Source of the DNA: an uncultured Pelagibacteraceae bacterium
Lineage (GTDB): Bacteria; Pseudomonadota; Alphaproteobacteria; Pelagibacterales; Pelagibacteraceae
Direction of reading: 5' to 3'
Assembly (NCBI GenBank): GCA_902535625.1
Contig: CACAUA010000002.1
Location: 1 to 64,000, forward strand
DNA length: 64,000 bases
The position numbers and the translations under genes were made by a program. Below, piece after piece: positions 37,827-39,853 of the stretch (position 1 is its first letter; the number at the start of each line of letters is the position of its first letter). The notes beneath the pieces were generated by a model. It was not told the origin of the DNA. It worked only from the letters and a program-made list of their open reading frames with translations, and did no database searches.

Positions 37827-37903
37827 TGGTGGGCCCGCCAGGACTCGAACCTGGGACCAATACATTATGAGTGTACTGCTCTAACCAACTGAGCTACAGG
37901 CCC
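37827..37903 (-). tRNA. tRNA-Met (CAT), elongator; tRNA-Ile2 not excluded
   Basis: A standard 77-base cloverleaf on the minus strand with encoded CCA. The acceptor GGGCCTG pairs with CGGGCCC (one T-G). The D arm has GTTGGTTA with the conserved GG. The anticodon stem GTACA/TGTAT closes the loop CTCATAA with anticodon CAT. The T arm CCAGG-TTCGAGT-CCTGG is canonical. CAT could be elongator Met or lysidine-modified Ile2, and by eye I cannot decide. It serves as a normal comparison for the odd tRNA-Val next to it. Confidence 0.95.
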
Positions 37904-37955: not shown

Positions 37956-38030
37956 TGGTGGGCCGTGTTGGTTACGCTCCAACTACCCCTGCAATGTCAA
38001 TGCAGTACTCTACTATTGAGCTAACGGCCC
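37956..38030 (-). tRNA. tRNA-Val (GAC) with non-canonical D and T loops
   Basis: A 75-base cloverleaf with encoded CCA. The acceptor GGGCCGT/ACGGCCC is perfect. The anticodon stem CTGCA/TGCAG closes the loop TTGACAT, anticodon GAC. The T stem GTTGG/CCAAC is perfect. But the T loop reads AGCGTAA instead of TTCRANN, and the 7-base D loop AATAGTA has no GG. So the bases that normally pair G18-55 and G19-C56 at the elbow are absent on both sides. Base 48 is A rather than a pyrimidine. Its first base G1 is also the third base of the rpoD stop codon TAG. It may be a working but unusual tRNA or a decaying one. Confidence 0.8.
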
Positions 38031-39853
38031 TAACTTTCTAAGAAGCTTTTTAATTGTTTAGACCTACTCGGATGTTTCAGTTTTCTCAAAGCTTTTGCTT
38101 CTATCTGTCTAATTCTTTCTCTTGTAACAGAGAATTGAAGCCCAACCTCTTCCAAGGTATGGTCTGTATTCATTCCTACACCGAACCTCATTCTTAAAAC
38201 TCTTTCTTCTCTAGGTGTTAGTGTTGATAAAATTTTTGTTGTAGCTTCGCTTAAATTCGATTTTATAGCTTGTTCTAAAGGAGCTAGTGCTTTTGTATCC
38301 TCTATAAAATCTCCAAGACTACTATCTTCTTCGTCTCCAACTGGCTTCTCTAGAGAAACAGGTTCTTTTGAAATTTTTAAAACTTTTCTAACTTTTTCTA
38401 ATGGCATTCTAAGTTTTTTAGCAAGCTCTTCTGGAGTTGCTTCTCTTCCAAATTCACTTAATATTAATCTTTGCGTTCTAACTATTTTGTTTATGGTTTC
38501 AATCATGTGTACAGGTATTCTTATTGTTCTTGCCTGGTCAGCAATTGATCTTGTTATTGCCTGCCTAATCCACCATGTTGCGTAAGTAGAAAATTTATAT
38601 CCTCTTCTATACTCAAATTTATCTACTGCCTTCATGAGTCCAATATTCCCCTCTTGTATAAGGTCTAAAAATTGAAGACCTCTATTAGTGTATTTTTTTG
38701 CAATAGATATTACTAGTCTTAAGTTTGCTTCCACCATTTCTTTTTTTGCAATTCTAGATTCTTTTTCACCTTTTTGAACTCTGCTTACGAGTTTTTTATA
38801 TTCTGTTACTGATAGACCTAATTTATTACTAATCTCTACAAGCCTATCTCTTATATTTTTGAATTCATTTTTATTTTTTTGAAAGAACTTTTTCCAAACT
38901 TCATTAGTGTCTAAAAATTCTTTTAAATTTGGATTAATCTCATTTCCAATATAAAATTTAATAAACTCATCTCTTGAAATTTTTGACTCTAAGGCCAATC
39001 TTAATAAATTTCCTTCTAATGAAATAATTTTTTTATTTTCAGCATAATGCTTTTGGACTAGTTCTTCTAATACTGATGGTGATAGTTGAAGAGACTTTAT
39101 ATTTTCTAAAATATCATCGACGATTTTTTTATAATTTTTCTCTTTCGAAAGCGAAAATTTTTTTGATTCTAATACACACTCTAATTTCTCTTTTTGATAC
39201 TTAATTAATTTATTATATTCTTTAGTTAGATTATGAACTGTCTGTAACACTTTTGGCTTAATTTCAGTCTCCATTGCTGCCAAAGTTGGATTAAACTCAT
39301 CTTCTTCAACATTATTATTTTCTTCGGAGGACTGACCGTCTGTTTTTTTTTGTTTTGATCCATTTTCACTTTCATCATCTTCCATATAGTTTGTATCTAT
39401 ATCAATAATTTCTCTAACTAAAATTTCATCATTTTGTAATTTGGTGTCCCACTCAAAAAACTGTAGAGCAGTTAAAGGACTCTGTGATAAAGCATTTAAC
39501 ATAACGTCTTTCCCCGCTTCTATTCTTTTAGCTATTGCAATTTCACCTTCTCTGGATAATAATTCAACACCCCCCATTTCCCTAAGATACATTCTTATGG
39601 GATCATCACTTTTCTCTATTGTTTTACCTTCGTCTTTGGATGAAGTGTCCTTTTTTCTCAATATTTTGTAGTCAGATTTCTTTTCAACTAAAATTATATT
39701 CTCATCAAGTATATGGATAAATGCTTGAGCAAGATTTTCGTTTGACAAGTTCCTCTTTCCTAAGGACTTGTTTAATTCTTCGTGAGTTATAAAGCCACGA
39801 TGGATACCTCTACCCATCAATCTAGCAAATGATTTTGTAATTATTCTTTCCAC
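38030..39853 (-). CDS. rpoD: RNA polymerase primary sigma factor (RpoD)
   Basis: The housekeeping sigma-70 factor, 607 residues. It has a short region 1.1, region 1.2 ([20 protein letters not shown]), an acidic non-conserved insert, region 2 with [21 protein letters not shown] (-10 recognition), region 3 (RIPVHM...), and region 4 with [30 protein letters not shown] (-35 recognition). The tail [12 protein letters not shown] is as expected. The start is GTG (39853-39851). The stop TAG shares its G with the first base of tRNA-Val. It follows dnaG after 65 bases, as in the classic dnaG-rpoD operon. Confidence 0.98.

Follow-up and report, generated by a model that had tools for sequence, protein, structure and literature searches.

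Next to rpoD in a SAR11 bacterium lies a valine tRNA gene that lacks several of the bases normally forming the tRNA elbow, which raises the question of whether its product can still translate. The gene sits in a 64,000-nucleotide stretch of DNA from an uncultured Pelagibacteraceae bacterium (the whole stretch analysed, hereafter the window). In passages of PMC7912444 and PMC4810234, the canonical elbow is given as G18-psi55, G19-C56 and U54-A58, and the latter source describes base 18 as slotting between 57 and 58, where it touches 55. A passage of PMC7912444 also calls G18-psi55 and U54-A58 conserved hallmarks, and psi55 the most universally conserved tRNA modification. The original prediction had offered three readings of the gene: a functional tRNA with a different elbow, a decaying one, or a tRNA-like element with another job.

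ARAGORN called the gene as tRNA-Val(GAC) with an encoded CCA, in agreement with the prediction, and its Rfam RF00005 score of 53.6 bits against a gathering score of 29 places it within the cloverleaf family (Table 1). This score is the lowest among the 15 tRNAs found in its own genome. The D loop, T loop and A48 read as predicted. With the 7-base D loop numbered A14 A15 U16 x18 x19 N20 A21, positions 18 and 19 are A and G, and conventional numbering of the T loop gives A54 G55 C56 G57 U58 A59 A60. The proposed loss of G18, G19, T54, T55, C56 and A58 therefore holds at positions 18, 54, 55 and 58 but not for G19 and C56, which are kept together with G57. The changes form two partner pairs, G18 to A with U55 to G and U54 to A with A58 to U, so that the canonical inner elbow (G18-U55 and U54-A58) is gone. 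The outer bases G19 and C56 are present in all nine distinct elbow-altered versions, and since both are kept the outer pair can still form. The gene thus belongs to an elbow class that we define here by A18 together with G55; it falls outside the eukaryotic-initiator type (A54, A58, A60), as base 58 is U. The canonical elbow predicted for the adjacent CAT tRNA was confirmed. The rpoD TAG stop (38030-38032) overlaps tRNA-Val(GAC) by one base, its final letter being G1 of the tRNA, so RNase P would cut the rpoD message within its stop codon; in relatives, the spacing between the two genes ranges from a few bases to more than 1 kb.

Table 1. Features of the tRNA-Val(GAC) locus, in window coordinates
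Feature	Position	Strand	Basis
tRNA-Val(GAC), alternative elbow, CCA encoded	37956..38030	-	ARAGORN, Rfam tRNA, conservation and stem compensation
D loop AATAGTA; A18 in place of G18, G19 kept	38011..38017	-	Sequence; A18 covaries with G55
T loop AGCGTAA; U54/A58 inverted to A54/U58, U55 to G55, C56 and G57 kept	37972..37978	-	Sequence, orthologue comparison
Variable loop GGGTA (A48), shared by several normal-elbow orthologues	37984..37988	-	Sequence
Neighbour tRNA, CAT anticodon, canonical elbow (GG / TTCGAGT)	37827..37903	-	ARAGORN, Rfam
rpoD, sigma-70, 607 aa, directly upstream of tRNA-Val(GAC)	38030..39853	-	Named from its sequence without a profile search

We investigated how far this gene is conserved in 101 relatives, 61 of them of the same genus (its own genome included); the eight others listed belong to the same order, and a further 32 relatives gave no match. 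Matches were found in 49 of the 101, every one in the genus, and 39 of the 61 same-genus genomes were identical over 75/75 positions, which excludes chance or a sequencing error. Identical D and T loops occur together on at least 120 contigs, and the 80 listed are all titled Pelagibacteraceae, Pelagibacterales or Pelagibacter. At 126 loci with an identical tRNA-Val(GAC) and enough rpoD, the median rpoD difference was 19.2%, and 42.3% at third codon positions. The loci read held 192 Val(GAC) genes, a set enriched by the loop-pattern scan and containing some genomes twice; the T loop was AGCGTAA in 180, a TTC loop in nine and ATCGTTA in one, and the remaining two, also with a TTC loop, were viral. 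When the normal-elbow Val(GAC) served as query, matches, with the two elbow forms counted together, were obtained in 300 of 399 genomes of the genus and in 55 of the 57 that were at least 90% complete. Eight of the nine elbow-altered versions were aligned, the ninth being left out for one extra D-loop base. All 168 cells of the 21 stem pairs were paired, compared with 82.9% in shuffles; ten pairs had changed on both sides, while the T loop was invariant and the D loop varied once, at position 20. Drift in a dispensable, decaying gene is hardly credible: several elbow consensus bases do differ and the Rfam score is low, but the identity across genomes and the compensatory stem changes around an invariant T loop contradict it, as do the same covariation in unrelated tRNAs and the gene's standing as the only Val(GAC) of a closed relative (both below).

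As the window's own genome is 75% complete, uniqueness was assessed in that closed relative, G012. Its 32 tRNAs include two Val genes, a canonical UAC and the altered-elbow GAC, and no second tRNA-Val(GAC) was found among them. A normal Val(GAC) elsewhere beside an unconserved copy, the situation that the original prediction had set against a functional reading, is therefore not what this genome contains. GTT is the commonest valine codon in the window, with 493 of 952 Val codons in 54 ORFs; GTC accounts for 71. The only tRNA-Phe of G012 also has A18-G55, so this elbow must serve translation. The tRNA-Thr(GGU) of G012 carries it too, and most tRNAs of that genome are canonical, as are the Phe and Thr(GGU) tRNAs of the window's genome.

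A tRNA-like element acting outside translation, like the staphylococcal cell-wall tRNA-Gly, would accommodate an altered elbow on a molecule that retains its acceptor and CCA, and a Val(UAC) is also available. This reading is nevertheless very unlikely given the commonest valine codon and the sole tRNA-Phe just described; moreover, the staphylococcal genes accompany a proteinogenic tRNA-Gly, whereas G012 yielded no second GAC tRNA. We conclude that tRNA-Val(GAC) is very probably a working elongator with an alternative elbow, which would be charged and decode GUU and GUC, and of the three readings first offered this is the best supported. Val(UAC) might read GUU as well, so tRNA-Val(GAC) need not be essential.

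We further examined where the altered elbow came from. Normal-elbow orthologues, with D loops such as ATCGGTTA and the T loop TTCGATT, occupy the same locus near rpoD. Ten loci have a normal or intermediate T loop, with G037 entering twice; rpoD is within 100 bases in six of them and 256 to 1307 bases away in four. Of the 183 loci with the altered elbow, 140 have rpoD within 100 bases, 18 have it at a greater distance and 25 have no rpoD. Both elbow forms thus stand beside rpoD, and the normal form of G037 has the same acceptor and anticodon stems, which establishes orthology. In the sister-genus genome G536, of which 1.20 of 1.21 Mb was covered, Val(GAC) has a normal elbow (ATTGGTA / TTCAATT) and lies at another chromosomal position, while a CAT tRNA stands beside rpoD. 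Locus L215 (G364) is an intermediate that has A54-U58 but retains GG and U55. Altogether, the orthologues, the intermediate and the sister genus show that the altered elbow is derived. A further, divergent Val(GAC) type in G233 (L692, 1564-1638) has U54, G55 and A58 with the D loop ATTAGTA. As L215 and G233 each show one change alone, A54-U58 is a second switch, separable from A18-G55.

The original prediction had listed A48 with the lost elbow bases. Since base 48 is A or G in the normal-elbow orthologues and A in the sister genus, we dropped A48 and the 15-48 contact as components of the switch in this gene. In an rpoD tree of 142 tips, the normal alleles did not form one clade, requiring 8 changes against a shuffled-label mean of 9.8 (minimum 7); this is a tree of one gene with many weak nodes, in which the outgroup and the intermediate were counted as normal. 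Given this scatter, we do not claim a single elbow switch, and recombination of alleles or repeated switching may be its source.

Acquisition of an elbow-altered gene from a phage, rather than change in place, deserves attention since five IMG/VR viral contigs carry a tRNA whose D and T loops are identical to those of tRNA-Val(GAC). Four of these tRNAs are Val(UAC) (L203, L204, L206 and L207), and they have exactly AATAGTA, GGGTA and AGCGTAA. Set against this, the acceptor and anticodon stems match those of the normal-elbow orthologue in G037, the intermediate L215 has the same body and T stem, and a blastn search of 50,697 phage records found nothing at E 0.001. We therefore regard a phage origin as unlikely and favor evolution of the alternative elbow in place.

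The viral tRNAs allowed the joint change of both partners, proposed from this one gene, to be examined broadly. Viral contigs were scanned for three T-loop types with bases 18-19 unconstrained, and once more with 59-60 open too. The contigs were thus chosen by T-loop pattern, two scans fixed A60, and the results concern the matches listed, at least 120 per scan. The tables retain genes passing stem filters (one kept 3895 of 4530, another kept 4540), and a D loop was scored GG whenever any GG was present, so that loops holding both GG and AG count as GG. Among the 3380 distinct, stem-filtered viral tRNAs listed, G55 went with AG in 276 cases, with GG in three and with another dinucleotide in ten, while U55 went with GG in 2989, AG in five and others in 78; C55 was found with GG (18) or another (1). 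Seventy-nine distinct cellular tRNAs gave the same picture (U55-GG 60, G55-AG 18, G55-GG 1). With 7-base D loops only (n = 1138 of the viral tRNAs listed), there were 131 A18-G55 and 993 G18-U55 combinations, no A18 with another base 55 and two G55 without A18. The 19-56 pair served as a positive control in the same 1138 tRNAs (G-C 1108, A-U 17, U-A 7, C-G 2, others 4). The 276 viral A18-G55 tRNAs among the matches listed span 43 isoacceptors and 202 clusters at 75% identity, a clustering that approximates phylogenetic independence.

A plain pattern used without ARAGORN gave AG in 73/73 A54-G55-U58 viral tRNAs and GG in 162/163 with A54-U55-U58 (one unparsed). For U54-G55-A58, AG was found in 94 of 110; the remainder were GG (5, of which four hold AG as well), another dinucleotide (6) or unparsed (5). 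Canonical loops had GG in 301 of 315 (AG 1, other 4, unparsed 9). Among 3081 viral tRNAs outside every scan pattern, G55 occurred with AG 143 times and with another dinucleotide eight times. Position 60 follows the second switch: U60 accompanied A54 in 0/378 listed viral tRNAs and in 0/173 outside the scan patterns (two scans fixed A60), whereas with U54-A58 the base most often found at 60 was U (2504 of 2959 listed). The counts for bases 18 and 55 strongly support their joint change, with few exceptions.

Other departures from the canonical elbow were seen in the viral material. The A54-U58 tRNAs often have a 4-base variable loop and a non-standard 15-48 combination such as A-C, unlike canonical viral tRNAs. 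Viral tRNAs with A54-A58 also occur, position 60 being mostly A; the tRNA-Met(CAT) of E. coli phages ESCO13 (L759, 1219-1293) and phiWec179 (L760, 2994-3068) has the T loop ATCGAAA, whose A54, A58 and A60 resemble the eukaryotic initiator elbow. In Pseudomonas phage 16Q (L758), tRNA-Ala and tRNA-Cys have U56 and a D-loop GA for GG, consistent with A19-U56 replacing G19-C56, and its tRNA-Phe has U56 too but keeps GG. The A54-U58 loop was absent from the tRNAs shown for phages 16Q, ESCO13, phiWec179 and D29.

In bacterial genomes, our pattern scans detect tRNAs with TAGCTCA and an encoded CCA. Across 385 genomes of the class, A54-U58 was found in three, all from the genus of tRNA-Val(GAC), and G55 in five: in tRNA-Phe of two genus genomes, in tRNA-His (AG D loop) of two sister-genus genomes and in one tRNA-Pro with GG. 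A backwards-pattern control matched three of the 385 genomes, so single G55 matches in that set call for caution. In the genus itself, G55 was matched in 96 of 201 genomes; apart from two, the printed matches carried the GAA anticodon of tRNA-Phe, and AG was present in each D loop printed. The sister-genus tRNA-His (L679 and L680, in G812 and G536) combines the D loop AGTTAGTTA with the T loop TGCAACT. The tRNA-Pro(CGG) with G55 and a GG D loop (L678, G672) is the sole bacterial exception seen.

We further investigated the enzymes that modify the elbow. In a profile search, TruB_N matched in 0/14 genus genomes, in 24/24 others (sister genus included) and in 14/14 named controls. The order rbfA-truB-rpsO is present in G061, G536 and G812, while rbfA and rpsO adjoin without truB in 5/5 genus genomes (G000, G012, G425, G037 and G338; loci L671 and L674-L677); TruB and S15 were identified by profile at these loci, and rbfA by position and sequence. 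For TrmFO, 8/8 genus genomes gave matches below cut-off (52-59 bits against 428.65) that are probably MnmG. No TrmA family match was found in the same number of genus genomes (0/8), nor in G536, G061 and G062, and G812 had one below cut-off. TruB requires GUUYRANYC according to a passage of PMC7912444, and this motif is absent from the T arm of tRNA-Val(GAC).

It is possible, although we hold it only tentatively, that loss of truB drove the switch, the new elbow compensating for the missing psi55; this would add a cause to the reading as a working elongator and does not compete with it. The uniform absence of truB from the genus, the several genus tRNAs that switched (Val, Phe and Thr) and the lack of TrmFO cut-off and TrmA matches all fit such a cause. 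Other observations weigh against it: A18-G55 is widespread in viral tRNAs, most G012 tRNAs remain canonical, and TrmA is also missing outside the genus. Normal-elbow alleles remain in the truB-less genomes G037, G158 and G437, so nothing compels the switch. The association with truB is correlative, stands at a single point of the tree and has a counterexample in the tRNA-His of the TruB-positive sister genus, for which reason we dropped truB loss as a requirement for A18-G55.

How might the alternative elbow of this elongator work? G19-C56 would be kept and would still present the flat outer surface that the ribosome and RNase P use. Inside, A18-G55 would replace the G18-psi55 contact, with A18 predicted to slot in a like manner against G55, and A54-U58 may replace U54-A58 as the pair closing the T-loop turn; with position 60 not U, A54 could not pair there. 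Such an elbow would offer no target for psi55, T54 or m1A58 and, in a genus without truB, it probably works without these modifications.

More broadly, we propose that tRNAs have a second natural elbow, self-consistent and able to fold without psi55, which is defined by A18-G55 and may or may not include A54-U58; that one of the most abundant bacterial groups of the ocean deleted its psi55 synthase and is shifting essential tRNAs to it one at a time; and that in phages this elbow serves tens of isoacceptors. We see the case for this wider proposal as evenly balanced. The elbow bases replaced in the SAR11 tRNA-Val(GAC) had been thought near universal. Among titles and abstract openings of CC-licensed papers, we found no report of A18-G55, A54-U58 or TruB loss in SAR11, and an alignment described in part of PMC3937112 had tRNAs with unusual secondary structures removed. 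With a replacement that is natural, covaries and occurs, in a truB-less genus, in tRNAs on which translation depends, the roles of the elbow and of psi55 become testable, and the sequence rule (A18 with G55; A54-U58 without U60) can be used by tRNA finders and engineers.

Compared with the canonical elbow, tRNA-Val(GAC) shares the four stems, the 7-base T loop, G19-C56, G57, G53-C61 and CCA, but has A-G at 18-55, A-U at 54-58 and A at position 60, with no target for TruB or for the T54 and m1A58 enzymes. The eukaryotic initiator elbow is described, in passages of PMC10602860 and PMC7912444, as having A54 and A60 with A58. tRNA-Val(GAC) resembles it in A54, A60 and a 54-58 pair other than U-A, but differs in U58, in the changed 18-55 and in being a bacterial elongator. 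Suppressor tRNAs obtained by the Steinberg group from randomised D and T loops reportedly have U54-A58, G54-A58 or G54-G58, not A54-U58; these too are non-standard elbow combinations that still translate, but they are laboratory selections. Finally, the staphylococcal tRNA-Gly of cell-wall peptide synthesis likewise has no normal D/T loop signature, but there a separate proteinogenic tRNA-Gly is kept, whereas tRNA-Val(GAC) stands as the one GAC tRNA found in its closed relative.
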